Below, piece after piece: positions 2,730-44,515 of a stretch of DNA of 44,567 nt. The number at the start of each line of letters is the position of its first letter. Position 1 is the stretch's first letter. This stretch comes from a virus. Made by a program: the position numbers and the translations under genes. Where the stretch lies: the IMG/VR virus record IMGVR_UViG_3300020411_000832, positions 1 through 44,567 of that record; one strand, written 5' to 3'. The notes beneath the pieces were generated by a model. The model ran no database searches and was not told where the DNA came from. It saw only the letters and a program-made list of their open reading frames with translations.

Positions 2730-5525
2730 TCAAACTCTACCAGCGACTTCTTCAAAGCTAACACCAGTACGTGTAGCAACGAAGGTCAGGGTGATGTAGT
2801 TGATCGACTTCGCAGGCTTCAGGAAGATGTCTGCTCGGAATTCATTATTATCAATTATGTCTGGAGTGTTGTTTGTCTCATCACAAATAACCAGATAATC
2901 GTAAATACCACGTTTTGCTTGAACATCACGTAGGTATGGTTCAACGATGTTAACGAAGTTTGCCCTCGTTACCTGATCGTTAAACTCGAAGAGTTGTGCC
3001 TGTGCTGCTCTTTCAAGTGCTTGCTCAACTGTCAAGAATAAACGACGAACGTTAATTCTATCAAATGCGGAAGCATATGCTAATGCAGTCTTATCACCGA
3101 AGAGAATAATTCCAGTTCCAGGTGTATTAATTATTGAGTTAATACGTGAGGAGTAAAGAATGTCTCTTTGTGCTTTCGTTGGGTTGTATGCAAGTTTAAT
3201 TGCATTCTTAATTACACCACGCTGCTGTCCAGCAGGTGAGAACCAAGGATAAGCAACTAGGTTTGTACGACACATCAATCCAGCAATATCTGGGTTGCAT
3301 GGAAGGTAACGGAACTTGTTATTGAACCTATCGTAAGTATACTTGTAACCACTGTCAAAGATTGCATAAGAAGAAGAACTTAGTGGTCCAAAGAACTCAA
3401 CTATGTTACTAGTTTGAACGATTGGGTCAGTAATGTTAACTACTGTTCCTTTGTGTGGTGAGATAACAGTCACACAATCTTTTCTAGACTCAGCAATACC
3501 AATTAGTTTGTTTGCTTTTGCCTGAGTATCATTGAGAGAATTACAGGAAGGTCCCATCAATAGGTAATCAACCTGAACCTCATCTTTATTATCGAAGAGG
3601 TTATAAGCAGTAATTAGATCTCCCAATTCTGCCTTAAGTCCACCAGCAGAAGTGTAATTCTCACCGTTTGTTAGTGAGTATGTTACCTGACCAACAGAAC
3701 TAAATGTATTATCTTTAGCAACTCTGTTCCAGCGTGTGGAGTTTTGAGTTAGTGCATACCATACAGTTGGTTGATCCGAATCCCCATAAACTAATGCTCC
3801 ACTAGACTTATTAAAGTAAGTTCCAGTAGGGAATGTATTATGGAAGGTATCGTTACCTTGTCCTTGGTTAGCACCTGCATAGATGTAATTCGAGAAGTTG
3901 GCAAGATAAGACTTGTACCATGTCTTCTGTGGTGCATTTGCTTCAGATACAGCATCAGTTGCCTTAGATAGGTTCAGATGCTTCTCTAGAATATTACCTC
4001 GGATACCAGTTAGAGTACCAGCATCATCAACAATAACAACGTGAAGTTCATCGTTCCTACCACCTCGCTGTGCTGTGTAGTTTGAGGTTCCAGGTTTAGG
4101 AGCAATACTTCGCCAGAATACTTTAGAGTTATCTAATCCAAGGGTTTGGTTATTGTACCAATCATCAACACCAGCAACTAATACTCTGGAGTTTGTTCCT
4201 TCAACAGAAACAACAACCTTATCATCTCTAAGAGATACTGTGTTTAGTTTGATGTCGTCAGTAATTGATGTACCACCAATTCCTGCACCGTTAATGGTAA
4301 TGGTTGTTCCAACACCATATGCTTCGCCAGGATTTGTTAATGATACAGTTCCAATACCACCAGTTGCATCTCGGAATACTGTAAAGACTGCTCCTGTACC
4401 TTCAGCACTTGTACCTGTTAGGTTAGTGTAAGTACCACTAGAAGCAGATGGAACAGTAGTTGAAGATGTAAGTCCAACTGTATTAATCTTACCTTGATTT
4501 AGATCATAACCACCAACGTATGTACCAGCAATGGAGACTGTATCAGTTACAGTGTATCCAACACCAGCATTTACAATAACTGCAGAAGCAACACCACCAT
4601 CTGTACTGTTTCTTGTAATAGTGAATGTAGCATCAGCACCACCGCCGTTAGTAGTACCACCAACTCCAATATAAGATTGGTCTTGCTGACCATTAATCTG
4701 AGATGAAGTGGTTATTCCAATACTTTGAATCGAGTCTTCGGGTGACATTACATCGCCGTCAGAGTCAAGAATCGTTAATCTTTGGTCTTTTAAGAACGAA
4801 GCATATGCACTATTTTCTGCATAGTTTACATATGTTTCCTTTCCAGGTTCCGTGCCACCAGTAGATACCCTGGATCGTATTTTGACCGTTAATGAACTAA
4901 ATGACGTTTCTGGAGCGTTAACTATTTGAGTGATAACACCCTTAAGATAACCTTGGAAGACAGAAGTGCTTCCTGCACCAGGAATTATTTGACCACTAAT
5001 GTCAACCGTTACACCGTATCCAACTTGAGCACCCATATCGGTTACTGAAGTTGTTGCAATACCAATGATCTGGTCTCCTAAGTCATCAATATAACAAACC
5101 TTTAGAGAATTTCCCCACCGTCCTGGGTTTTTTGCTGCATATAGGAAGTTCGACGCTGCATCTATGTAATTAGTGTTATAGTCGTCAAAGTTCTTAATCT
5201 TTGTACCTGCTATAGAAGAAGTACCTACACCAACGTTTGAGTTTGCGAGGTTATCGTCATCGGTACGTATTACCTTAAGCACACCACCATAGGAGAGGTA
5301 TTGTGATGCTGACATCCAGTACTCATACTGGGCATCGTCATCATAAGGCTTACCGAATGTGGTTATCAGATCCTGCTCTGTAGCAATATTGATCGGTTCT
5401 AATACGGGACCAATTTCAAAAGGTCCAGCAATACCTCCAATATTGTCAAGAACGTTTTCCGCTCTACCTACCGTTAAGTCAACTTCTCTAGTCAGTACAC
5501 CAGGAGATAATTGAGGAGTGGCCAT
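2730..5525 (-). CDS. 18: Contractile tail sheath protein gp18 with inserted repeats
   Basis: This 931-aa protein is the sheath subunit that contracts to drive the tail tube into the host. The N-terminus MATPQLSPGVLTREVDLT and the C-terminal domain (about residues 790-925, including ILFGDKTALAYASAFDRINV and the RRLF helix region) are the conserved parts of the T4-type sheath family. T4 gp18 is 659 aa. Much of the extra length lies in the middle, where about residues 285-425 are Gly/Thr-rich and carry two units of the type VNAGVGYTVTDTVSIAG that also occur in other virion proteins here. Such mid-protein insertions are expected to face outward on the sheath surface. A late promoter at 5565-5572 lies 39 bases upstream, and a GGAGA ribosome site precedes the ATG. 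Confidence 0.96.
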   Translation of the reverse strand: MATPQLSPGVLTREVDLTVGRAENVLDNIGGIAGPFEIGPVLEPINIATEQDLITTFGKPYDDDAQYEYWMSASQYLSYGGVLKVIRTDDDNLANSNVGVGTSSIAGTKIKNFDDYNTNYIDAASNFLYAAKNPGRWGNSLKVCYIDDLGDQIIGIATTSVTDMGAQVGYGVTVDISGQIIPGAGSTSVFQGYLKGVITQIVNAPETSFSSLTVKIRSRVSTGGTEPGKETYVNYAENSAYASFLKDQRLTILDSDGDVMSPEDSIQSIGITTSSQINGQQDQSYIGVGGTTNGGGADATFTITRNSTDGGVASAVIVNAGVGYTVTDTVSIAGTYVGGYDLNQGKINTVGLTSSTTVPSASSGTYTNLTGTSAEGTGAVFTVFRDATGGIGTVSLTNPGEAYGVGTTITINGAGIGGTSITDDIKLNTVSLRDDKVVVSVEGTNSRVLVAGVDDWYNNQTLGLDNSKVFWRSIAPKPGTSNYTAQRGGRNDELHVVIVDDAGTLTGIRGNILEKHLNLSKATDAVSEANAPQKTWYKSYLANFSNYIYAGANQGQGNDTFHNTFPTGTYFNKSSGALVYGDSDQPTVWYALTQNSTRWNRVAKDNTFSSVGQVTYSLTNGENYTSAGGLKAELGDLITAYNLFDNKDEVQVDYLLMGPSCNSLNDTQAKANKLIGIAESRKDCVTVISPHKGTVVNITDPIVQTSNIVEFFGPLSSSSYAIFDSGYKYTYDRFNNKFRYLPCNPDIAGLMCRTNLVAYPWFSPAGQQRGVIKNAIKLAYNPTKAQRDILYSSRINSIINTPGTGIILFGDKTALAYASAFDRINVRRLFLTVEQALERAAQAQLFEFNDQVTRANFVNIVEPYLRDVQAKRGIYDYLVICDETNNTPDIIDNNEFRADIFLKPAKSINYITLTFVATRTGVSFEEVAGRV

Positions 5526-13116: not shown

Positions 13117-16100
13117 TTACGCTAATGCAATTGCCCTTAAATCACGTATCCTTGGAGGATATGCCTGGTTTGTACCAGTTCCAACAATCTTAATACTGAA
13201 GTATCTAAATTCAGGAAGATCATCAATACTAAATTCATAATCAGTGAATGGAAGATCATCACTACCATGAGCAAGAACATCAGTCTTAGGAATCCTCTTA
13301 TCAGGAAGTCCACTATTCTTAGCGATATCAACGATAGCACCATTAACATCCAAATTAGGATATCCAGGGAATGGATAGTAAATTGGATCAGATTCTAAAT
13401 CATTTGATATTGAATAGAAGCATCTAAGATCACTTTGAGTGTTCATATATGCTGCCATTAAGACCTTAATTGAAGTAGCAGAATTCTCTAATGTAATTGG
13501 TTTATTAGCATAGATAAATGCCGTTGGATCTTCAGTAATTGTAGATGCTCTAGAATCACCTGCGTAATCCGTAATTGGAGCATTAACTCTATTACTAATA
13601 AGAACCATACCAACTCTATCCAAGTCAATGACTGGAGAGATTTCACTATCTGAAGAAGATAACGTGAATGTTACTTCCATAGACTTGTTACCAGGACGAC
13701 TATCTAAACGTTCAAGTTCATTGACTCGTGAAGCAATCATTCTTGGAGATTCGAGGTATGTATCATCTTCAATATTGATTGGAGTTGCTTCAGTCTCAAC
13801 AAAGGACTGTTCACCACCATCAATACTTGTGGCAGTAGTATTCTTCATCTCTGCCTTGATACTGGTATTTGGTAATACCATTGTCTGAACAACAGGTCTT
13901 ACTCCTTCAAACTGGATGTTCTGAGTTGCGTGAATCTCTTCACCACCAGCAGACTTGGATTCATTGATGAACAATTTAGGGAATCCAATTCCAGTGCTAC
14001 GATCTGTTCCATCTAAAGATGGATTGACCTTAATGTAGTAAGAATCAAGAGTAATAGATCTTTGAGGAGTAGCATCTTGAAGATCATGTGTCTTATTGAT
14101 ACGTCTCAAGGAGATTCCATTAATTTCATACTTCTCAACTGGTGTCTTAGCAGGATAAGTAAATGGAGTTGTTTGATCAACAGATCTAGTAATTCCAGTT
14201 AACTGACCAGCAGCAATTCCAGTGTAAGAGATAATTTCATCATTAATCCTAACATATCCAGGGTTAGTAGCAGCAACACCAACATTCTCAAAGGTTTCAA
14301 AATCTGAAGTATTAGCAATACCAATAGCAGCAGAACTAGAGTTTGAATACTCTGCTGATAGAGTAGTTAACTTAGTATCAGACTGTACATCACTAATAAT
14401 CACTTTGTTGATGTCTTGATGCATACCGTGGTTCTTATGGTTCACTTTAATATGCATACCATCTTCTTCTAAACTGTTTAGTGCATAATCACTAATGTTT
14501 ACATCAGAACCAAATCCAACTGATACCATAGTGGTAATTCCAGTAGAAGGACTGATAAATTGAAGTGGTTTTGTAGTGCTAATTTCAAAATCACCTTGAA
14601 CATCATCAAGAACTAATTCATTAATTCCAGTAACTGATCCCAATGATAGTTGCATATTTCTACCCAACTCATTGTTACCAATTGTAGGTACTGTTAAAAC
14701 ATCACCAACTTGGTATCCAGATCCACCACCATTAATGGTTGCAGCAATAGCGACACCATTTGTACCGCTCTGTGTACCAATTGTAATGTCTGCTGTTGCG
14801 TTTTTACCAATTCCACTAAACGAATTTAAAGCAACACCAGTGAAGGTGAATTGAGATCCGTCTGTAGGTGTGTATCCAATACCAGCATTAATAATACTTA
14901 GATCACCAGTTGCAGAACCACCAGCACCAACATAATTTGCTGTTGCATCGGTATCTTTTTGAATAACTGTATTTCCAAGAACTAAACCACTTGTGTTTAC
15001 AAGATCATCCGTAGTAACAATAAGTTTCTTAGAATTAAATTCTAGAGAATCTTTAACCAAATTAGCGATTTGATTGTTACCTCTTCCCAATTCTGGGTTA
15101 TAGAATGAAATGGTTCCAGAATTCTCAACAAAGTCAGCAGTGTATAGAGTGAACTTAAGATCTTCATACTGACTTGGGTTCCATGTTGAACCATTCTGCG
15201 ACTTGAATAGAGATCCAAGACTTGGTTGTGCTGAGACAACAACTTGTCTAGATTCTGGTTGCAGAAGGGTTGTAATATCAACTTCACCCATTCTGGAGAT
15301 CCAAACTGTATACTCGTTAGACTGTGATAGTAAAACGATAGCATGGTCTGTTTTTGGTTCTAAGTAAACAGGTGATGGGAATACAACCGTAGTAGGTGTT
15401 CCAGCATCTGCTGACTCAAAAATATCCTTAGATTCTAAAATAACTTCACCGAAAGGATACACCTCTTCTGAAGGAACGCCAGCAACCATCGGTCTCAACT
15501 GTACCGTTACAGGTAGCAGCGGATCTTTTGTTCTGAAGAAAATGTCTACTTCGGTTACAAAGAAACCAGCATCATTTTGAACAGAGAATGATTGTGCGAG
15601 CGGATCTTTACCGCCTCTAGCGGGCCTCGGTGGCGGTGTAGGTGGCCTTGGAGGTGTAGGTCTAGGAGGTGGTGGAGGTGGAGGTGGCACTGGCCTCGGT
15701 GGCCTTGGTGGCCTTGGAGGATTAGGTGTTGGCCTCGGTGGGGGCGGCACAGGTGGCCTTGGGGGAGGACTTGGAGGTGGTGGTGGGGGTGGAGGAGGAG
15801 GTGGTAATGGGACTCTCGTTGTCTCACTACTTGTAGTCACCCTTTGAGTAGAAGTAACATCTGTTGCAGCACGAGATTCAGAAGTTGCTTGGATATCAAA
15901 TCTAGGTCTTCTAGTAGATCTGATAGTCTCCTGCATATTATTAATTGTACCTTGAGCGAAGTATTGCTCTTCACCCATTGTTCCAGTCATTCCACCAATA
16001 GTACTATTCGTAGAATTACTTGTTAATCTGAATAACTTAATTCCAACCTCAAATGATGGATTGGATGTAATATTTGGATTAGGAATAAAGAATGATCCAA

Positions 16101-19100
16101 GAACTGTTCCTATACTGTCACTGAATAATCTTATATTAGTAACTTCTGCTTCACCAGTAGCACTTCTAAGTCTCATTCCAGTTCTTATAAAACCACTATA
16201 AAGAGCCTGTGTCTGATCTGCTAATGATACAGTATCTACGTTAAGTAGAATTGAAGAACTTGAGTAACTTTCTGGAACTGTATATGTGTCATCATAAGGA
16301 CTTGTTGTAAATACATCAGTTGGTGCAGCAATTGGTCCAATTTTATGATTGGATTGTGCAACTCTAAATGATATCCTAGGTGTTGCTGCATTAGTTGCTG
16401 TAACTGTACCTGCAGCCATTGTTCCATTAACAATCTGACCTACAGTAAATGTACCACTAATCATTCTTACTTCGACTAGTTTTGGTACAATAAATGCATT
16501 TACATCTTGACCATCAAAGAATCCATAGAGTCTTGTTAATGGTTTAAATTTACGTCCAGTAAATTCAATATTTCTAGACCTCATAAATGCGATGACAGAG
16601 GTACTTACTACCTTATCACCTTCATTTACAACATCAGTTTGCTCACTAACTCTTAGTCTCTCACCAGCTCTAGTTGAAGTACCAGTTCTGGTAGTAGTTG
16701 TAGTAGTTGTAGTCTGGAATGTATTTGTAGTTACAATCTGACTTCCATTATTCCTAGAAGTAGATCCTGTCTGTACCCTAGCAGAAGTATCAACTGAACT
16801 AGATCCAGTCCATGTAGTATTCCATGCACCCCATCTAACAGGTCCTAAACCAGTTTGTGGGTCATATCCATCAAATTCTAACTGTCTACGGGTTTGAGTA
16901 TAGTTGTCAACCTCAATTCTTTGTGGTTGGAGTCTAACTTGGTCAATCCATATATCAGATGATGGGAATAATACAATATTACCTGTATAGGTAGTTACAA
17001 GGTATGGAGTAACATTCTCAACCCTAGTAGCAAATCCTTGTCTAATTCTAGACGCAGATTCATAATCAAGAGTTAATAATTGACCTGTTCTCTTAATACC
17101 ATTACCAATCAAATCAGTAACAAATCTAGGATCAGCAGTTGGATTAGCAGTTGTTCCTATACCTATCAATGACCTAGAACCTATCAACATATCAACTTCA
17201 GTTGTGAAGTGTGTAGGTCTTAGTTCAAGATTTGCAGGGTCAACACTATTAGTTACCTTACCAAGTTTTAACTGAGTTGATGTTCCTGAGAAATTATCAA
17301 CGTAAATACCAGATTTAAATCTTGTTAAACCAGCATTATCAGGAATAAACAGACTTTCTGTATTAGATTCCAGAAGAGAAAGTGCAGTATAGTACTCTAA
17401 ATTCTGAATTCTATCTTCCAATAATGCAATATCTTGCATCCTATATCTCTTATGAGACTTGAGTCTAACCTCTATATTCTCAGTATTACAGATATAAGGT
17501 GGTAAACTGCACATTGCAACTTCCAATGCATCCTCAATAGGAATAGGTGGAACTGGTGTGTCAGCAGGAATACCCTTAATTAATTGGAATTCACCATTCT
17601 TAGTTAAATAAATTCTATCAATTCTTGGTTGATAGTAAGAATATTGTATATTAATTGCTTCATCAGACGCTAAAATATTCTTCGCAGAGTTTGTAGCATC
17701 AGAGAATACCCTTGCATCAAATTCAAATGGAGATACTGCAGTTGAGTCTAAATTAAAATTGGTTACTCTTGGTCTAATATCAATAATATCACTTAATCTA
17801 ATATTCTCTTTAACATCAGGTAATACACAATAATCAATCTGATCATATGAAGAAACAGTTGTTATATCTCCATCATCAGTAGAAGCGTACTCTGCAGATT
17901 CAAAAATAACTCTTATTTTCTTTCTAGGATCTTTACTATTAGGTTTTCTAATAATACGAGAATAATCACAAATAGTCTCTCTTTGCCCACTATCTAAAGA
18001 GAATCTATCCATAATATTATTATCACCTGGATCAAAATCATTAATAGTAGCAGTTATACCACTCTCAATGAATTCAATCTGCTCATTTAATTCAAATCTT
18101 AAATCACTTAAATAAACAAATCCTGCTTTAGCACTATTAATTCGTTCAATATACAAACCAATAGCACCTGTTGTTTTACCAACAAATTCTTCACCAGCAA
18201 TTAAGTCATCAACACGTCCAGTTGGACCATTCATGTTGAATACAGTAATTGATGGGATTAATGGATCTGCAATACCACCAGATTCAAATACACCATAAAC
18301 CTTGGTTACATCTGGTTCTCCCAAACAGATATCAGTATCCTGAACCCTTAATCCATAACCATAGTTACCATATGTCAATCCATCATTTAATGATGTTGTA
18401 CCAACACCAGAAGTTACTAATTTTGACTTATTAACAATAATCGAATTGGTTCGTATTCTATTCTTAACTTTGTTCTTAACATTAATTTTATTAAGAGTAG
18501 CAACCAATCTTGCAGATCCTGCAGTAGCAGACAATCCAAAGATTCTTAACTCTCTACCACCATTAGTAAAACGCAGTTTATCTGGGGTTAATTCTTCAGT
18601 AACACCTGCATCATTAGTTAAAACGTATCTTTCTTCATCATATGGCAAGAATGTCTCATCTTGACCTGCCTGTATAGTATTAGTAGCATTAGCAGTGATA
18701 ACTACATCATATTCTTTTCTAATTGTGATGTTAGACTCTGTTAAATCAACATCAGAAACCCATTTCTTAGGTAATGGTGTATAGAGACTATTATCTGTAG
18801 ATGACTGGTATTTAGATCCTATTAACTGGAAGTCAACTGGTTGTGCTGCTGCGGAAGGAAGACCACCATCACAAACACCTGCAACTGTAGTTACACCTGC
18901 AATAATAATATTACTATCGTCAGTATAACTCTCAACTACAGCAAATGTCTTAACTGTTGTTCCACCTAATAAAGGATTAGTAAATGATACTAAATCACCT
19001 GCTTTTACTTTATTTCTAAAACCACCACCAGGAACTGTGACTGTTGATATTCCAGGTGCTGTTCCAGACTTAGGAGTAATGTTTACATTACCGTAAGCAA

Positions 19101-20799
19101 TCTTTGTAAATGGTTTAACATCAGCATTAAATGTACCAACACCAACTGAACTATGAATAGACTCAACTGCACCTATAGAGTGTGCTGTTATTCCTATGGC
19201 AATTCTATTGTTATCTACACCATTAAAGATTAATTTTTCACCTGGTGTAAATGCACCAATTGAGTTATATGCAGTTATAATTCCAGTAGTAGTCCCAAAC
19301 CTTAAGTGTGCCGTTGCACCACTAGATTTACCTTTGATGTAAGTAGGTACAGTTAAAGTTATTGCTTGGTTTACTGTTAACTCAGTGTATGGTTGAATAT
19401 CGTATAATGTGACATCAAATTCATTAGTTGCTGGAAGTGCAGATGAATATGATCCAGACTCTAATGCATAATCATATACTCTTGCAACACCAATCTCTTT
19501 ACCTGCTGCAACATGAGCATTAGCACCAATTCTAGAATCTCTAAGACTAATACTAGAAGTTGTTGTAAATCCTATTCTAGGACAACCATATGCTCTATTA
19601 ACAGTTAAAGTTGGACCTGTATAGTAATTTACTGCTTGATTTTTTAATACTTTCTTTGTTCTTGTCTTCTCAAAATCTAGATATACAACATTTCTAACAG
19701 GAACTTCAAATCCCTTAATAAATGCTTTACCTGGAGAGATCTTATATGTACCTAAATCTTGACTTGGTGTGTTATTACCATAAGTTAATTGATTTGCACC
19801 AAATACGCCGTTATTTCCCTTATTATCGTTTAATGATTCCTTTGCTGATATTGTAAATGGTTTTACATAGAAGTCACCAGCATGACTATATGTTCTTCTT
19901 GCTAATTCATCTCCAAGTTCATTATACTTAATCTTATCATCAATATGGGCAACTGAACCACCGTTGATGACCATCAACTCAACGAAGTTCTCATTCTTCT
20001 CAGATTCTAAAGATCTCTTTCCTAATTTTACACTAATCTTTAATCTATCTGCACCTGGAGCAGCAAAATTATTAAATCCTTTAGCATTATCAGTCAAAGA
20101 CTGATCCTTACTTGAAGTAACTATTTCTTCAGTTATTTCTAAACCAACTCTATATGTTGGGTTTTCATCATGAGGATCAAGAATTAATGTCTCATCATTA
20201 ACTCTTACAAATTGACCTCTTATAAAATATACACCTTCTGATATGAATACTGCAGATCCAACTGATGTAGCGTTAGTTGGAGCACTTTTAGCACAACCTT
20301 GACCTGCTTGTAAAGTCAATTGTGCATCTTGAGATACTACATTTTGCTGAAGTAGTAAAGTCTCATCATCATCAAAAACATCTTTATCATTAACACCAGA
20401 ACCAAGATAACTGACAAACATTGTCATGTATCCTCTTGGTGAGAATTCTATAGGCAAAAAGTCTATAATTTTTGCTTTTACTTTAGAATTTGATCCAGTA
20501 ACTACCTCATTAATTAAATCATATCCATAACCTTCTACATCATTACCTAAAAAATTTGGCTCGACTTCAACAGCAAACATATTGTTGTTAAAGTTTATTT
20601 GTCCTGGAATAACACAAGATCCTTCCTTGAACAGGTGAGTTCCTACTTGCTCTACCTGATTTTGGAGGATCGACTGTAATGTTGTTAATTCTCTAGCCTG
20701 AATTGGTAATCCTGGCTTAAACAATACCTTATGAAAATCCTTACTCGCATCAAAATCGTCAAAATAAGGCGATACATTGAGATTAGTTTCTTGTGCCAT
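13117..20799 (-). CDS. Large DUF4815-type tail/baseplate protein with polyproline linker
   Basis: This 2,560-aa protein begins with the DUF4815 signature (SPYFDDFDASKDFHKVLFKP, then GLPIQARELTTLQSILQNQV). This family region appears to run to about residue 1150, ending near HKRYRMQDIALLEDRIQNLE. A Thr-rich stretch lies around residues 1360-1380. Residues about 1662-1730 are a linker made almost only of Pro and Arg, followed by DPLAQSFSV at about residue 1733 and a second beta-rich half with 'GSGY' units and an 'INDEIISYTG' unit. In T4 this position holds gp9, gp10, gp11 and gp12, the peripheral baseplate proteins, none of which is recognisable here. The protein probably replaces them as a fibre connector or host-contacting part. 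Similar cyanophage proteins are sometimes labelled VrlC; I am not certain that applies. Confidence 0.88.
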   Translation of the reverse strand: MAQETNLNVSPYFDDFDASKDFHKVLFKPGLPIQARELTTLQSILQNQVEQVGTHLFKEGSCVIPGQINFNNNMFAVEVEPNFLGNDVEGYGYDLINEVVTGSNSKVKAKIIDFLPIEFSPRGYMTMFVSYLGSGVNDKDVFDDDETLLLQQNVVSQDAQLTLQAGQGCAKSAPTNATSVGSAVFISEGVYFIRGQFVRVNDETLILDPHDENPTYRVGLEITEEIVTSSKDQSLTDNAKGFNNFAAPGADRLKISVKLGKRSLESEKNENFVELMVINGGSVAHIDDKIKYNELGDELARRTYSHAGDFYVKPFTISAKESLNDNKGNNGVFGANQLTYGNNTPSQDLGTYKISPGKAFIKGFEVPVRNVVYLDFEKTRTKKVLKNQAVNYYTGPTLTVNRAYGCPRIGFTTTSSISLRDSRIGANAHVAAGKEIGVARVYDYALESGSYSSALPATNEFDVTLYDIQPYTELTVNQAITLTVPTYIKGKSSGATAHLRFGTTTGIITAYNSIGAFTPGEKLIFNGVDNNRIAIGITAHSIGAVESIHSSVGVGTFNADVKPFTKIAYGNVNITPKSGTAPGISTVTVPGGGFRNKVKAGDLVSFTNPLLGGTTVKTFAVVESYTDDSNIIIAGVTTVAGVCDGGLPSAAAQPVDFQLIGSKYQSSTDNSLYTPLPKKWVSDVDLTESNITIRKEYDVVITANATNTIQAGQDETFLPYDEERYVLTNDAGVTEELTPDKLRFTNGGRELRIFGLSATAGSARLVATLNKINVKNKVKNRIRTNSIIVNKSKLVTSGVGTTSLNDGLTYGNYGYGLRVQDTDICLGEPDVTKVYGVFESGGIADPLIPSITVFNMNGPTGRVDDLIAGEEFVGKTTGAIGLYIERINSAKAGFVYLSDLRFELNEQIEFIESGITATINDFDPGDNNIMDRFSLDSGQRETICDYSRIIRKPNSKDPRKKIRVIFESAEYASTDDGDITTVSSYDQIDYCVLPDVKENIRLSDIIDIRPRVTNFNLDSTAVSPFEFDARVFSDATNSAKNILASDEAINIQYSYYQPRIDRIYLTKNGEFQLIKGIPADTPVPPIPIEDALEVAMCSLPPYICNTENIEVRLKSHKRYRMQDIALLEDRIQNLEYYTALSLLESNTESLFIPDNAGLTRFKSGIYVDNFSGTSTQLKLGKVTNSVDPANLELRPTHFTTEVDMLIGSRSLIGIGTTANPTADPRFVTDLIGNGIKRTGQLLTLDYESASRIRQGFATRVENVTPYLVTTYTGNIVLFPSSDIWIDQVRLQPQRIEVDNYTQTRRQLEFDGYDPQTGLGPVRWGAWNTTWTGSSSVDTSARVQTGSTSRNNGSQIVTTNTFQTTTTTTTTRTGTSTRAGERLRVSEQTDVVNEGDKVVSTSVIAFMRSRNIEFTGRKFKPLTRLYGFFDGQDVNAFIVPKLVEVRMISGTFTVGQIVNGTMAAGTVTATNAATPRISFRVAQSNHKIGPIAAPTDVFTTSPYDDTYTVPESYSSSSILLNVDTVSLADQTQALYSGFIRTGMRLRSATGEAEVTNIRLFSDSIGTVLGSFFIPNPNITSNPSFEVGIKLFRLTSNSTNSTIGGMTGTMGEEQYFAQGTINNMQETIRSTRRPRFDIQATSESRAATDVTSTQRVTTSSETTRVPLPPPPPPPPPPPSPPPRPPVPPPPRPTPNPPRPPRPPRPVPPPPPPPPRPTPPRPPTPPPRPARGGKDPLAQSFSVQNDAGFFVTEVDIFFRTKDPLLPVTVQLRPMVAGVPSEEVYPFGEVILESKDIFESADAGTPTTVVFPSPVYLEPKTDHAIVLLSQSNEYTVWISRMGEVDITTLLQPESRQVVVSAQPSLGSLFKSQNGSTWNPSQYEDLKFTLYTADFVENSGTISFYNPELGRGNNQIANLVKDSLEFNSKKLIVTTDDLVNTSGLVLGNTVIQKDTDATANYVGAGGSATGDLSIINAGIGYTPTDGSQFTFTGVALNSFSGIGKNATADITIGTQSGTNGVAIAATINGGGSGYQVGDVLTVPTIGNNELGRNMQLSLGSVTGINELVLDDVQGDFEISTTKPLQFISPSTGITTMVSVGFGSDVNISDYALNSLEEDGMHIKVNHKNHGMHQDINKVIISDVQSDTKLTTLSAEYSNSSSAAIGIANTSDFETFENVGVAATNPGYVRINDEIISYTGIAAGQLTGITRSVDQTTPFTYPAKTPVEKYEINGISLRRINKTHDLQDATPQRSITLDSYYIKVNPSLDGTDRSTGIGFPKLFINESKSAGGEEIHATQNIQFEGVRPVVQTMVLPNTSIKAEMKNTTATSIDGGEQSFVETEATPINIEDDTYLESPRMIASRVNELERLDSRPGNKSMEVTFTLSSSDSEISPVIDLDRVGMVLISNRVNAPITDYAGDSRASTITEDPTAFIYANKPITLENSATSIKVLMAAYMNTQSDLRCFYSISNDLESDPIYYPFPGYPNLDVNGAIVDIAKNSGLPDKRIPKTDVLAHGSDDLPFTDYEFSIDDLPEFRYFSIKIVGTGTNQAYPPRIRDLRAIALA
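15605..15815 (-). repeat. Pro/Arg-rich linker coding repeat
   Basis: The minus strand encodes about 68 residues that are nearly all Pro, with Arg, Thr and a few Val or Ala residues, in runs such as PPPPPPPPSPPPRPPVPPPP. The DNA is locally GC-rich and purely C-rich on the coding strand, unlike the surrounding AT-rich sequence. It joins the two halves of the DUF4815-type protein. Runs like this usually form an extended polyproline II rod. The repeat is prone to length change by slippage. Confidence 0.85.
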
Positions 20800-22436: not shown

Positions 22437-25400
22437 ATGAAATAATATAACCCTTATAGCGTAGTGGATTTTTTCTCCTAATCACTGGGTTAGATCCAAT
22501 ACCAGACTGACTGGTTCCATGAACAGCTTCAAATGTTTGTTTTGTTCCTAATCTAATGGATAAGTTAACTTTACCCCAAGTATAATCACCATAATTTGCA
22601 GTTGTACCATATCCAACTACATTTGTAAAGTTAGCAATCTTCGCAACAACAGTTGTAACCGTAGTTGCAATACCAACAGAATTTCCACTTATTTCGGGTG
22701 GAATGAACCTTGTATTATGTGTGTAATGTGCAACCTCAAAAGTTGCATCCATACATGTAGTACCAATTCCAAGAACAGAATTATCTGCACGTAATGTAGT
22801 AACTGGACCATTAACACCTGTTCCTGTAACATTAAACAGATATCCAGTCTCAATTCCACTTTGTACTAAAGAGAATCCAGATTTTAATTTAGAGTCCTGA
22901 GGTATATAGAAGTCAAATGTTATTCCAGTCGATGCAACACCAACAATAGTAGTTGTACCAATACCAACAATTATTCCGTAATCACCTTCAATAGTTGTCT
23001 TAGGTACTTCTTCAAGTTTTCTTGAAGGAGGAGCAACCATAACTTCTGGTGAACCAATAGCACCAACATTAAACTTAATTGGAGTTGTAAGTGCCCATCT
23101 TCTATTTGTAGTGCCCAATCCAACATTATCATATACTTCAACTGCTAATTGATCACCTGGTTGATAACCAGTACCGCCTTCTACAATCGCTACAGAAGAT
23201 ACCTCATAGTTTAAAGTACTAATTTCAATATTAGCAGTAGCACCCCTACCAGATCCAGTATATGTTATTAATTTAGCATTACTCATTGTATTAAGTCCAC
23301 TCTCTAAGAATGGGAATCCAATACCATTTTGAGCAACAGTAAGAGAAGTTAATGGTCCATATATGTAACCAGTTCCACCCATACCAACAGCAATACCAGT
23401 GATACTTCCATTACTATCAATAGATGCAGTAGCTGTAGCAGCAGTTGCAACTCCTACAACATCAAATGGTTTTTGAACAGTAACTTCAGGTGCAACAGTA
23501 TATCCAAAACCTGGATTAGTAACTGTAATTGCATTAACAGCACCATTAGAAATGGTACATGATGCAGTTGCATTAACCAATGGTTCTTGAGTAATAATCT
23601 GCATCTTCTCTCTATCACCAACTAACATTGCTTCTTTAGGATCATCGAATAGAGATCTTAAAGAGTATACAAATACAGAAGTAGAATTAACCCCAACAGT
23701 CTCAAGAATATTGGTTTGTGGATTAATTACTGGTTCATAATAAACTCTATCTTTACCAACAATGTTAGTATCAATAATCTTGTCAACATCCTGCTTAGTC
23801 CAAGAGATTGGTCTTTGAAGAAGTTCATTAGGTGTAACACCCTGACCAGCATAGTTATTAGTTGTAATAGTGTCTGCTGACTTAACATCCATAACAAGAC
23901 GCTCATCTTGGTTAAATGTAACATCTACATCACTGTAAAGTTGAACATCATCACCAACTTTGAGTGTAGGTAGAACATCAACTTCTCTAACATCAATAGT
24001 CTGTGTACCAGTGTACATCAACAGTTTACACTTATCTCCAAGTGTAGTAAATCCTGCTACACCACCCTTAGGTGCTTCTGAGAATCTAAGAGTACTACCT
24101 CCAGTAAAGGTATAACCCTCACCAGGAGTCTGTAATATATCATTAACAAATACTAGTAAGTTAGATTGTAAATTAATACCTGCATTTGCTCTTGCAAAGA
24201 AGGATATTCTGTCACCATTACTTGCTAATGGGAATAGTCTTCTGATTCCATTAAAGTAAGGAGTAATATCATCAAGAACTAAGAAGTCACCAACATTCCA
24301 ACCAGAGAATTTAGATGCATAAGTCTCATCAACAGTTAACTGGAATTCTCTGTAAGATCCAACACCTACAAACTGGTGAGCATATCTCTTACCAACAGGA
24401 GCCATACCAACATTCATCTTAATTGTTGTTGGAGTTGTAGATGCAATACCAACACCACCATAAATTGGATCAGTTTGTCTTGGATATGGGTTTATAGAAC
24501 CATAATCATCACTAGAACAAGTAAAGAGTAAAGATTCATTTGCAAGTCTAACTCTTTCTCCTGTATGTAAACTATGCTGTCCTACAGTTAAAGTCAACCA
24601 TCCTGTAAATCCATTATAATCAGCATCAATGACTTTAAATCTACGTTCTGCAGGTGCTTTACCGATATTAACACTAATTGTATTCTCAGTTGTTGATCCA
24701 ATTGATACAGCGTTATTATGATAAGGATCAGCAGTACTAATACCAGACTTACCAACATTAATTGTAATACTAGTTGGAGTAGTTGCTGCAATACCTATTG
24801 TTGCATTATGTGCAGGATCAGTTGTACGTGGATAAGAATGCTCAGTACGATGATCATCCAAATCACAAGTAAATGTCATTGATTCAGTAATAATACCAAC
24901 AGTATTAGAACCTGCAACTAACTTATGATAAGAAGTCCCAACATTAACTGTAATAGTATCTAAAGTAGTTGCTGCAATTGCTACATTACTCAATCCATGA
25001 ATAGGATCTTTTGCACGAGGATAAGATTGAACACTACCATAATTATCTCTAGAACATGTAAATGCTAAAGATCCAGTAGCAATACCAATTGTATTAGATG
25101 TTGTTAAGTTATGGTTAGACTTACCAACAAGAACCTTGAATGTTTTTGCTGTTGTTGATGCAATCGCAACTGTTGATAAATTGTGGATTGGATCAGTTGT
25201 GCGTGGATATGTCTTACTTGTAGCATAATCATCTCTAGCACACTTGAACGCTAATGAATTAGTAGCAATACCAATTGTATTAGCAGTTGTAAGATTATGA
25301 TCTGCAACAAATGTTAATTCTAATTCTCCACTCAAAGGATCATATGTTGCAAAATTAGGACTTAATTTAGTACCACCAGTCCAAACACCAACAGTAACAG

Positions 25401-40120: not shown

Positions 40121-42028
40121 CTATAGTCTTACGTAATCCCCATTAAGGTAGCTAGACGATACTATATATCCCGATCCTGAGAGTTCTGCTCCAGAAGCAA
40201 TTGAATCGGAAACCATTGTCAATGATGAAGATCCTGAACTTAACTGTAAGTACAAATCTTGCTTTCCAATGATGTCATTAGATTTTGGTAGAGCAGAAAA
40301 CTCAATAATCTCATCTCCAGATACTTTTTTGGAGGTAGATATGATATTAACTGCGTTAATTAGTATTTCACCCTTTTGATAATCAATAGTACCTACATTT
40401 TTTCTTACAACTACAGGTTGTTGTTTAGCATCAAGTCTAATCATAACCATATCCCCTGTTAGCATGTCTTTATTAGGAACATCACTAAAGTAAACTGTAC
40501 CAGTTACACCACTAATGCCAACACCAGAGGTCTTAACATTGTATCCAGCAGTATTCTTGATGTGAAATTCATTACCAAAACAAACTTCATATTCTGCAAA
40601 CTGGTTCATTAAGACTCTAAGATCCCTCCTCATTTGTACATTTGTGATGTTTGAGGTTATTGAACTACCAGAATCATCAATCAATTTAAGGAATTTACTA
40701 TATTTGAACCTTGAACCATACTTATTCAGGTCTGTAGACTTACTATACTTCTCAATATTAGAAGCAACTGTCTGTTTTAATGACGCTGCATCACCAGTAT
40801 TGGCATTATAATAGACAGCAGACTCATATTCGATGTAAAGATACTTCAAATCAATGAATTCTGGGATAATTCCTGCAACTGCATACTTTTTAAGAGCAAT
40901 TTTTAGGTTATCTTTGATGTTATTTGGTAAATATGTACCATTTTTAGGTTTAACAGTAATGTAAACCTTACCAAATTGAGGAGGAACTAACTCTTCACCA
41001 CCAAAAACAGATACAGATTCAGTCTCTGGGAAGATTTGGGGTAAAATGGTCTCATAATCAGTAGCAGTTACCGCTCTATTTTGAGAAGCATAGACTCTAG
41101 GAGCAAACTTCTTAATAGAAGAGATGGTTTCAATCGCAGTACCACCACCAGATGCCTCATCAGCAGTCACAATAGGTGAAGATACCTTAATAGAGTTGCC
41201 ATTATTGTCAAATAATCGCCCTACAAAGGTAAAATCAGACACTCCATTAGCATCTTGTGCTGCTGTAGTGATATAAGAACAAATAATGTAGTTACCATCC
41301 TGTAATTTACGTCCAAAAACACCATCACCAAAGAAAATTTCATATTTTTGGTCTTCAATTTCGTTCAAAAAGAAGACATCTTGAGTTGCGTCAACTTCAG
41401 TGATGTTATTGACGTACTTATACTTCCTACTAATGGAACTTGTCTTCGATTCTCTTACATCTATTCTCAATAAGGTGGTATCTATAGCATTGTTATTGAG
41501 AATAAACCTTTGATCCTTGTTTAAACTGTCATAGGTAAAGGATTCAGTAAGATATATGCCCTCATAAATGTCAATTCCTGAAAAAGTAGCAATTCCACCC
41601 GATACAGGGACTGTTATGTCCTCTGGGATGGAGAAAGTAAAGGATTGAGTACCAAAATTAGACGAACTAGTACATACAATACCCTTTCTAAGAGTTAAAG
41701 TAATAGGATTAGTACCTATATTTGCTGTAGATACAAAAAATGATATTTTTGCTTTAGCAGATATAGGTGATCTGGGTATATAACCAACATTTCTTGCTAA
41801 TGATACAACATTTTCTCTTAAAGTTGCCGCATCAATAAACACCTCATTCGCTAACATGTTAGCATTATAAGAAGAGATGTATGTATTGTATGCTAAGGTG
41901 TCCAGAAGGATAGAAAAGTTCGATCCATCAAAATCAAAGTCCGTAAAGTCACTATTTGTTCGTAGATAACTCTTAATTTGACTTTTTATCTGGTCAAAAT
42001 CTAAATTTGAAAAATTTACTAACGCCAT
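40121..42028 (-). CDS. 6: Baseplate wedge protein gp6
   Basis: This 635-aa protein is the T4-type wedge protein gp6, whose dimers form the continuous ring of the baseplate. T4 gp6 is 660 aa. The N-terminal part (residues about 15-90) contains the baseplate J-like region with DFDGSNFSILLDTLAYNTYI followed by NANMLANEVFIDAATLRENV and GYIPRSPISAKAKISFF. Around residues 305-350, NRAVTATDYETILPQIFPET and FGKVYITVKPK match the J/gp6 core. The C-terminus is Ser-rich. The gene is 3 bases after gp25 and 4 bases before the giant gene, so the three are probably translated from one message, the usual order gp25-gp6-gp7 position. Confidence 0.95.
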   Translation of the reverse strand: MALVNFSNLDFDQIKSQIKSYLRTNSDFTDFDFDGSNFSILLDTLAYNTYISSYNANMLANEVFIDAATLRENVVSLARNVGYIPRSPISAKAKISFFVSTANIGTNPITLTLRKGIVCTSSSNFGTQSFTFSIPEDITVPVSGGIATFSGIDIYEGIYLTESFTYDSLNKDQRFILNNNAIDTTLLRIDVRESKTSSISRKYKYVNNITEVDATQDVFFLNEIEDQKYEIFFGDGVFGRKLQDGNYIICSYITTAAQDANGVSDFTFVGRLFDNNGNSIKVSSPIVTADEASGGGTAIETISSIKKFAPRVYASQNRAVTATDYETILPQIFPETESVSVFGGEELVPPQFGKVYITVKPKNGTYLPNNIKDNLKIALKKYAVAGIIPEFIDLKYLYIEYESAVYYNANTGDAASLKQTVASNIEKYSKSTDLNKYGSRFKYSKFLKLIDDSGSSITSNITNVQMRRDLRVLMNQFAEYEVCFGNEFHIKNTAGYNVKTSGVGISGVTGTVYFSDVPNKDMLTGDMVMIRLDAKQQPVVVRKNVGTIDYQKGEILINAVNIISTSKKVSGDEIIEFSALPKSNDIIGKQDLYLQLSSGSSSLTMVSDSIASGAELSGSGYIVSSSYLNGDYVRL

Positions 42029-42031
42029 TAT

Positions 42032-42433
42032 TTACCTAGTAGGAAGCAACACGAATTCTAACTGTTGCGGTTGTGCATCAATTCCAACTATAAGGTAGAT
42101 TAGGGTTACATTCATTGCATTACCTAAAAAATCGGGTTCTACAGTGACTGTATCTACTTCTACTCGTGGTTCATAATTTTCTATTACAGTTTCAATCTCT
42201 CTTCTTAAGTTATCTGCCGTAAAGGTGTCAATTGTCTCAAAAAGGAGTCTATTAACTGCACAACCAAGATCAGGATCAAATATTTTTTCACCTTGTATAG
42301 TTAATACAAGATTCTGAACGGAACGTGCAATGGCAGATTCATTCTTAAGCACCAAAAGGTCTTTAGTAATGGGATTCCTTTTTAAAGACAAACTAATATC
42401 TTTAAATCCAACGCTGGACCGCTCTAGAGGCAT
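42032..42433 (-). CDS. 25: Baseplate wedge protein gp25
   Basis: This 133-aa protein belongs to the gp25/GPW baseplate family; T4 gp25 is 132 aa. It forms part of the wedge core next to the sheath and helps nucleate sheath assembly with gp6 and gp53. The motif NLVLTIQGEKIFDPDLGCAV (about residues 42-61) followed by a Leu/Phe helix is the family core, and the beta-rich end EFVLLPTR is also typical. Two late-promoter-like AATAAATA octamers lie just upstream (42436-42443 and 42453-42460). Only the farther one is at a plausible distance from the ATG. Confidence 0.95.
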   Translation of the reverse strand: MPLERSSVGFKDISLSLKRNPITKDLLVLKNESAIARSVQNLVLTIQGEKIFDPDLGCAVNRLLFETIDTFTADNLRREIETVIENYEPRVEVDTVTVEPDFLGNAMNVTLIYLIVGIDAQPQQLEFVLLPTR

Positions 42434-42997: not shown

Positions 42998-43168
42998 CTA
43001 TCTCCGTTGTGGTTGTACATCAATTTTATCTGGGTCAATATTATTCTCACTATCCGAGAAAAAGCGGTCAGCATAATCTTGCAGAACCTCTCCTAGTTCC
43101 TCTTCAGTGAGGCACTTGTAAAGTACCTCATTATTATACAAAAGGTTATAAAGAGTTCCGTAAGACAT
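42998..43168 (-). CDS. Small acidic protein (56 aa), coupled to the gene before it
   Basis: The protein starts MSYGTLYNLLYNNEVLYKCL and continues with an acidic helical part (TEEELGEVLQDYADRFF) and the end DKIDVQPQRR. A longer frame opens at 43219, but I prefer the ATG at 43168 because it overlaps the stop of the glycosyltransferase-like gene as TAATG, a typical coupling junction, and because the extra 17 residues lie wholly within that gene. It has no known motif. The context is a cotranscribed cluster of small genes in front of the baseplate block. Confidence 0.75.
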   Translation of the reverse strand: MSYGTLYNLLYNNEVLYKCLTEEELGEVLQDYADRFFSDSENNIDPDKIDVQPQRR

Positions 43169-43956
43169 TAGATCACCCTTGTCTTCTCGTGACCGACTCT
43201 GATACGAGGATCGCACCAAGTCTCAACGTCTGCTTCTTTGGCATCTAGACAGAATGAGACATCTTCGCCACACATGTCCTGAACATTACCAGACTCAAAG
43301 ACTTGCATCTTAGGAGCAAACCAAGGATATTCGAGACGTTCAAAAACACCCTTACGAATCATAACCCAACCAAATCCTGTGTAATCGACAGTAAAAGGTT
43401 TGCGTCTCTTGCTCATAGACTCTACAGTCTCATGATTCATAACACCACCGTTCTTACGGAAGTCATCTTCGTCTAACCAATGAGCAACTGAGGTAGTATG
43501 CCCATCTTCAGTAGCATACCAACCAGCGACAATCTCCTTCTCAGGTTGAGCAACTCCGTCCTTGTCTGGTCCAGGTACTGCAAGATCGCATAATTGCCAG
43601 AACTTATTAGTGTCAAATACTATATCACTATCAATCCATAACTGATAGTCATACTTAAGTTTACCATCCCAAGGTATCTGCTTAGGACCACGTAATACAT
43701 TTGCTCCAAGACACTTGCAACGTGCAAAGTTAACCATAGAAGAGTAATCTTGAGAGATTTGAATACTCATCTGATTTTGCACAAGGTCAAAGCAGAGTTG
43801 TACAAAACTCTTTAAGAACTGATACGAGCAACCTCTACCAGGTAGGCAAAAGACTATTGCTTTACCTCGCATTCTTGCTTTAATCTCATCGTAATTCCAA
43901 TCTTCTACTGCTTTTTTCTTCGGTGCAGCAGCCTTCACCGTAAAACCTTTTGCCAT
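43168..43956 (-). CDS. Glycosyltransferase-like protein (GT-A fold)
   Basis: This 262-aa protein has features of GT-A glycosyltransferases. After a basic N-terminus, IVFCLPGRGCSYQFLKSFVQ (about residues 34-53) looks like the first nucleotide-sugar-binding strand and helix. KYDYQLWIDSDIVFDTNKFW (about 100-119) contains a D-x-D motif for metal and sugar-nucleotide binding. The C-terminal part has GFGWVMIRKGVFERLEYPWF and then CGEDVSFC near residue 230, ending with a His-Glu-Lys (RVGHEKTR), all common in family 2-like enzymes. It could modify phage proteins or glycans, but donor and acceptor are unknown. The gene ends in a TAATG overlap with the next small gene. The 48 bases upstream contain GAAGG, a usable ribosome site. 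Confidence 0.75.
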   Translation of the reverse strand: MAKGFTVKAAAPKKKAVEDWNYDEIKARMRGKAIVFCLPGRGCSYQFLKSFVQLCFDLVQNQMSIQISQDYSSMVNFARCKCLGANVLRGPKQIPWDGKLKYDYQLWIDSDIVFDTNKFWQLCDLAVPGPDKDGVAQPEKEIVAGWYATEDGHTTSVAHWLDEDDFRKNGGVMNHETVESMSKRRKPFTVDYTGFGWVMIRKGVFERLEYPWFAPKMQVFESGNVQDMCGEDVSFCLDAKEADVETWCDPRIRVGHEKTRVI

Positions 43957-44004
43957 TGTGGATAATTACCTTCAAGTCAATTTTAACTGTATAATTCTTA
44001 TTTG

Positions 44005-44178
44005 TCAATAAGAACCTTCTGACATGTCCTTGTCTAATAAGTCATCGAATTCCTCATAATCTAACTTATCTGGATGCTCATCTATTTTTTCCTTCCAATG
44101 TTTATGGAAGGACTCTTCAGTAACGCAGGGGGCGATACATGTTTCTTTATCGTAGATATGATAGATTTTTTCAGGCAT
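44005..44178 (-). CDS. Small acidic protein (57 aa), first gene after the promoter
   Basis: A short frame begins with ATG at 44178 and encodes MPEKIYHIYDKETCIAPCVT followed by an acidic segment rich in Asp, Glu, His and Lys, ending DKDMSEGSY. It has two cysteines in its N-terminal third (residues 13 and 17, C-x3-C). The sequence AGGA lies about 11 bases upstream as a ribosome site, and an extended -10 promoter lies about 87 bases upstream. The gap to the glycosyltransferase-like gene is 48 bases. The reading is supported by its fit between promoter and next gene and by a protein-like composition. The family is not recognised. Confidence 0.7.
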   Translation of the reverse strand: MPEKIYHIYDKETCIAPCVTEESFHKHWKEKIDEHPDKLDYEEFDDLLDKDMSEGSY

Positions 44179-44264: not shown

Positions 44265-44273
44265 ATTATAACA
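44265..44273 (-). promoter_or_regulatory. Extended -10 sigma-70-type promoter
   Basis: The minus strand reads TGTTATAAT, that is TGn followed by the perfect -10 hexamer TATAAT (44270-44265). A -35-like GTGACA lies at 44290-44285, but with a spacer of only 14 bases, so the extended -10 is the stronger evidence. Such a site would be used by the host RNA polymerase with its own housekeeping sigma factor and not by the late sigma factor. It would drive the 57-aa and glycosyltransferase-like genes with a leader of about 80 bases. Confidence 0.5.
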
Positions 44274-44280
44274 CACTCTC

Positions 44281-44460
44281 GAATTGTCACCTCTGTAGGT
44301 TAGGGTCTCTATCCCTTTTTAAACGACCCTTCACGGCCGCTTCGCTAATCGGCACACGGTCACGAATCACTGCCGCACACGTCTACTGTCTAGAGGCGAT
44401 GTCGCACGAATGACTATAACGACTCGCCGTTGCCATCACCCATCGCAACGCCTACCAAAA
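44281..44460 (-). other. GC-rich non-coding stretch with inverted repeats (candidate RNA)
   Basis: The interval between the terminator and the -10 promoter has no convincing gene on either strand and is clearly richer in G and C than the coding DNA around it. Three inverted repeats are visible: GCGATG (44396-44401) with CATCGC (44441-44446), CGGCA (44350-44354) with TGCCG (44371-44375), and AGGGTC (44302-44307) with GACCCT (44325-44330). No tRNA T-loop or anticodon arm pattern was found. It may be a structured RNA, a protein-binding region or a remnant of an eroded gene. The strand is assigned only because all neighbours are on minus. Confidence 0.35.
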
Positions 44461-44469
44461 ATTAGACAT

Positions 44470-44495
44470 AAAAAAAACCCCACCTTACGGCGGGG
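44470..44495 (-). terminator. Rho-independent terminator
   Basis: The minus strand reads CCCCGCC-GTAA-GGTGGGG followed by eight T residues. The stem has seven pairs (one G-U) with a four-base loop. It lies about 20 bases after the stop codon of the partial upstream gene, so it should end the preceding transcript and insulate the structural block. Confidence 0.88.
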
Positions 44496-44515
44496 CGGTT
44501 GCACTCATGCGGTGC

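Follow-up and report, generated by a model that had tools for sequence, protein, structure and literature searches.

Late promoters are numerous and have no conserved upstream box. In the T4-like cyanophages, from which motA and asiA are absent, both the switch from early to later expression, made without MotA, AsiA, Alt or Mod, and the start of replication are open questions, one theta origin having been predicted in Syn9 (PMC2984593). The locus considered here lies at 44281-44460 of the window, by which is meant the whole 44,567-nucleotide stretch that was analysed (IMG/VR record IMGVR_UViG_3300020411_000832), and had been described in a first-pass annotation as a GC-rich, gene-free block bearing three inverted repeats between a terminator and a promoter. 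The reading favoured below, held with a confidence that falls just short of even, is that it belongs to a family-wide composite promoter in which a putative protein on a near-invariant core takes the place of the -35 element.

The GC content of the block is 52.8%, against 36.1% for the whole window, and in a scan of the latter only 0.66% of 180-base windows were equally GC-rich. The sole stronger GC outlier of the window is a polyproline-coding stretch near 15.6 kb (15500-15800, minus strand), where GC peaks at up to 68% within a 2560-aa ORF occupying 13117-20799. A protein encoded in the block was rejected, as the local ORFs gave no match to any PHROGs or Pfam family, and no tRNA or tmRNA was found in the window. 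Read on the minus strand, which is that of the surrounding genes, the block opens right after the strong intrinsic terminator of the upstream gene (44469-44496, with the stem at 44496-44477 and the U-tract at 44476-44469) and closes at a perfect extended -10, TGTTATAAT (44265-44273, minus strand). The composition, the lack of genes and both flanks had thus been correctly described. The inverted repeats did not hold up: exact stems are of 6 bp at most (AGGGTC/GACCCT, CGTTGC/GCAACG), their number was matched by 9-17% of dinucleotide-preserving shuffles, which is chance level, and the fold energy of the block is unremarkable on both strands (z of -1.34 and -1.17). A scan for a 14-base GC-rich pattern was unspecific and was not used. 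The block is not a single unit. Its lowest 25 or so bases (44281-44306) are part of an ultraconserved element and the remainder, which extends to about 44465, forms the variable arm upstream of a conserved site. The DNA of this arm (44324-44465, minus strand) is kept in close kin only, the block being alignable with just two relatives, L110 (79%) and L030 (67.5%), each with the terminator at the same place, and the block proper (44306-44475) gave no meaningful blastn match among named phages.

The ultraconserved element, ACCCTAACCTACAGAGGTGACAATTCGA, is 28 bp long (44279-44306, minus strand) and encloses a 16-bp family-wide core, CCTAACCTACARAGGT (44289-44304, minus strand). When the junction was compared by blastn with named phages, S-SM2 and Bellamy matched all 28 bp perfectly and SynMITS9220M01 and S-SCSM1 gave long junction matches, the adjacent coding DNA of these phages being only about 75% identical. 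The exact 28-mer occurs in at least 119 IMG/VR stretches and the CCTAACCTACAAAGGT variant in at least 120 additional ones, and a 55-base version was located by blastn at 297 places in 296 phage records, all of cyanophage type (about 294) except for two chance matches to Bacillus phages. Between 16 and 28 letters of the site are nearly unchanged across hundreds of cyanobacterial ocean viruses. By way of comparison, 373 'Synechococcus' and 61 'Cyanophage' records contain a gp6-like gene, and as these outnumber the records with the element some cyanophages have no copy detectable by blastn. The first-pass annotation was right that the space is retained for a reason, and a site for protein binding, which it also proposed, is likely.

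The core is nearly always single-copy, occurring exactly once in each of 13 whole records, with no occurrence of the reversed pattern used as a control. At E 1e-9 or better, a sequence-only model found one site each in Syn9 (at 53505), S-SM2 (58851), Bellamy (73827), ACG-2014b and the window. It also gave a diverged site in ACG-2014f (E 0.002) and two sites in S-B43 (E 5e-10 and 8e-7), but no site in T4 or S-PM2. In the equivalent gap ahead of gp25, S-PM2 does have a candidate at 25139, CCTAAGCTATAAACGTTTCCCAG, whose sequence taken by itself does not rise above chance. The second S-B43 copy (140264-140368, minus strand, E 8e-7) is diverged, stands ahead of a cluster that includes a PAAR-type protein and carries a perfect GATAAATA of late type in the matching position, and it makes the single copy a rule rather than a law. 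The PAAR-motif protein that ends this cluster is annotated as a 'helicase' and is probably misnamed. Host origin of the core was rejected, no Synechococcus or Prochlorococcus genome having a match; the only matches of this kind were on five metagenome-assembled genome (MAG) contigs, four of them with the full element context (cyanophage-type gp6 also being present in three of those four MAGs), and a fifth that is without it and looks like a chance match. Cyanophage-type contigs with the element (L170, L171, L172 and L174) sit in MAGs labelled Gammaproteobacteria, Woesearchaeota and Euryarchaeota, probably through contamination. No match was found among plasmids. Small hypothetical ORFs deposited for P-TIM68 (58296-58565) and S-ShM2 (54052-54126) overlap the element and are probably over-predictions. 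In the literature the core string occurred in unrelated papers only, and reports on the Syn9 transcriptome or genome may already describe a transcript start or a predicted origin here.

The arrangement of the site was read from an alignment, anchored at the core, of 140 de-duplicated loci, with the first core base as 0; these loci are still related, so that counts are not independent events, and they were picked by exact core match, so that invariance of the core inside the set is partly by construction and the independent evidence for it is the number of exact 28-mer matches together with the blastn searches. The order of parts is fixed: a CAGT box, a GC-rich, A-poor tract, an A-tract 11 bases before the core, the core itself and a TATAAT-like hexamer 18 bases after it, with the core and the two AT boxes at fixed distances. 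AAAA occupies -15 to -12 in 91-97% of loci, ACTAC precedes the core, C is found at +18 and G at +24 in 98% each, and ATAT at +33 to +36 in 83-92%. In the window the A-tract box, TTTAAAAA (family consensus TATAAAAA), is at 44316-44323 on the minus strand, or -19 to -12 from the core, and the CAGT box at 44369-44372 on the same strand, 68 bases upstream of the core; across 44 aligned relatives its conservation is 90% or more. Both CAGT and TTCGT are enriched as words, but only CAGT is positional, near -40 to -72, and iteron-like repeats were rejected on this account. Between the CAGT box and the A-tract the GC content reaches 75% at -30 to -21; in 93% of loci the tract is richer in GC than its own contig, and on the RNA-like strand G predominates on average, with a mean skew of +0.13 that is positive in 72%, its length and sequence varying between lineages.

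Two promoter motifs are associated with the core. The TATAAT score peaks sharply at +34, which is also the hexamer start in the window; 74 of the 140 loci match at least five of six letters exactly there, and with the allowed offsets a TATAAT-like hexamer is present in 67% of loci as against 8% when shuffled. This is the constrained position expected of a sigma-70-type -10. A TTGACA 16-18 bases upstream of the -10 is absent, the core letters RAGGT standing there and GTGACA 13-14 bases away. A clear -10 is missing from some lineages, such as those in which GTGAGTGATTTCGAG follows the core. The second motif is a near-consensus sigma-70 promoter further upstream on the same strand, found in 102 of the 140 loci (73%, 48 of them perfect) and on the opposite strand in only 8. 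It was not found in the other 38, including the window and its close kin L030, and a separate, earlier scan gave none in L110. Where it is missing the -10 matches are weaker, not stronger, so that the two promoters are not simple substitutes. By inspection the core contains neither a Pho box (CTTA-N7-CTTA) nor an NtcA site (GTA-N8-TAC), as defined in PMC3037559.

The strand of the element is constant, and baseplate genes 25-6 follow it downstream at a distance of about 1-4 kb. In the window, where all the following are on the minus strand, it is succeeded by a gene for 57 aa (44005-44178; PHROG 2626, function unknown), a gene for 262 aa (43168-43956; PHROG 1574, function unknown, with a weak glycosyltransferase match), a gene 25-like baseplate wedge subunit (42032-42433), which is the first structural gene downstream and was named from relatives sharing the gene order, and a gene 6-like wedge subunit (40121-42028; 56% identity to S-SM2 gp6 by tblastn). 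A second promoter, TTGACA-17-TAAAAT (11/12), is present immediately before the 262-aa gene (43980-44008, minus strand). In S-SM2, Bellamy, SynMITS9220M01 and S-SCSM1 the element has variable small genes on one side and genes 25 and 6 on the other, and in Syn9, ACG-2014b and Syn30 it is followed by small genes of gp91 type and a gene for the baseplate wedge. At least one of five marker genes lies downstream in 93 of 99 contigs with enough flank and upstream in 0 of 24, and a gp25 match on the same strand is downstream in 72 of the 99. Which genes come first downstream depends on lineage, yet their strand never changes and gp25/gp6 follow them. The idea of an exchange point between modules survives to the extent that the site divides a variable small-gene cluster from the gene 25-6 baseplate cluster, but it is highly conserved and not hypervariable. 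The small genes downstream of the element in S-SCSM1 include an annotated tryptophan halogenase gene (3512-4678).

Conservation at the level of DNA, fixed spacing to the -10, a constant strand and a constant downstream cluster argue for a promoter in which the core replaces the -35 element, and from them, with the near-single copy and both promoter motifs, we infer protein binding, promoter activity and the genes controlled. The region would be a composite promoter, with the block as its upstream arm, and would govern entry into the gene 25-gene 6 baseplate cluster. A putative sequence-specific protein, encoded by phage or host, would bind the invariant core over the -35 region and recruit host-type RNA polymerase to the hexamer 18 bases downstream, and the A-tract, about 60 bases before the expected start site, may assist in the manner of an UP or bending element. 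In most relatives the second strong sigma-70 promoter would read through the GC-rich tract from further upstream; in the window, where it is missing, the terminator parts the site from the upstream gene. The strong bias of the upstream promoter to one strand favours this reading, as does the core being conserved as DNA and not as RNA pairs, and the second copy in S-B43 fits a promoter, as the site is evidently able to precede another gene cluster. Against it, a promoter would not usually be kept in nearly a single copy, nor with 16 bp or more almost invariant, given that activator sites as a rule differ in sequence, and the -10 is weaker where the upstream promoter is absent and unclear in some lineages.

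The main rival to the promoter reading, rather unlikely in our estimation, is that T4-like cyanophages have their main replication origin at this site, with a mechanism like that of T4 oriF: RNA begun at the upstream promoter would stay paired with its template over the G-rich tract as an R-loop, the AT boxes would open and the core would bind an initiator or a loader of the helicase. A site so extremely conserved and nearly always in single copy is what might be expected of such an origin, as is a tract that is on average G-rich and followed by AT-rich DNA, and the theta origin predicted for Syn9 is likewise single (PMC2984593). A promoter upstream of the region to be unwound, a feature of R-loop origins, is present in the same 102 loci, but the window lacks it, several relatives have C-rich rather than G-rich tracts and S-B43 has a second copy. 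The annotated T4 oriF adjoins gene 25, although on its other side relative to transcription. In four genomes neither GC skew nor third-position skew showed a replication-type switch at the element, a result that is uninformative on the origin because nearly all genes are on one strand and coding skew dominates.

It is improbable that the core is instead an RNA signal in a leader transcript, for antitermination or processing, which would ready the polymerase for the long structural cluster in the manner of lambda nut or HK022 put. The upstream promoter would put the core some 75-135 bases into the transcript in most loci, one copy stands ahead of the long structural cluster, a weak 4-bp hairpin (ACCU-loop-AGGU) can form and the segment from -20 to +50 folds slightly better than shuffles (mean z -0.87). 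The hairpin, however, never covaries and would lose one pair in the ACG-2014f copy and two pairs in the candidate from S-PM2; no upstream promoter can be recognised within 250 bases in the window or in 37 other loci, and this reading offers no account of the downstream -10 hexamer. A small structured non-coding RNA encoded by the block, the leading idea of the first-pass annotation, is very improbable: the block is gene-free and GC-rich with a promoter-like neighbour in most relatives, but Rfam gave only sub-threshold chance matches, tract-covering segments of the 140 loci are no more stable than their composition predicts (mean z -0.28 and -0.15), RNAalifold on 44 diverse aligned sequences gave a covariation term of 0 with four invariant hairpin pairs only, both the sequence and the length of the tract change from lineage to lineage and in the window the block has no promoter of its own. 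A recombination, homing or packaging target under selection unrelated to transcription would suit a site at the edge between variable small genes and structural genes, and an HNH endonuclease gene (59209-59823) does adjoin the diverged ACG-2014f copy, but with promoter-like fixed spacing, constant orientation and no adjoining endonuclease gene in most annotated relatives examined it is scarcely to be expected.

It is possible, though we would not put it higher, that the T4-like cyanophages share one cis-acting master site marking the boundary between variable small genes and structural genes, either the long-sought replication origin or a one-per-genome switch with a putative DNA-binding reader. 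A near-invariant site in nearly single copy at one junction in hundreds of genomes is a small target for the questions of expression switch and origin; a short probe could fish out the putative binding protein, and existing RNA-seq or read-depth data from infections can be checked at one coordinate per genome.

Among known systems, the cyanophage RNA families wcaG, manA, glnA, PhotoRC-II and CfrI are likewise conserved non-coding elements of cyanophages, but those in Rfam gave no match and the element has no supported RNA structure. The T4 late promoter (TATAAATA; NATAAATA in S-PM2) is also an AT-rich box upstream of structural genes, and the likeness extends to the late-type GATAAATA that both the S-PM2 candidate and the second S-B43 copy have in the corresponding position; an exact NATAAATA near +30 is however found in only 1% of the 140 loci, too few for a T4-like late promoter, and A stands at -13 in 97% where the late consensus has T. 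T4 oriF (ori uvsY) also combines a promoter with downstream AT-rich DNA near gene 25, but differs in its side of that gene, and T4 has no sequence match. In the T4 middle promoter, a MotA box plus a -10, a phage-specific box similarly replaces the -35 element at a set spacing from a sigma-70 -10; by inspection the core has no MotA box sequence, and there is one site here where T4 has dozens. Class II-activated sigma-70 promoters share with the element a -10 at a fixed distance from a conserved box at -35 and an A-tract upstream, whereas the cyanophage element, whose activator is putative, has a box that is near-invariant and present at about one site per genome across a phage family.
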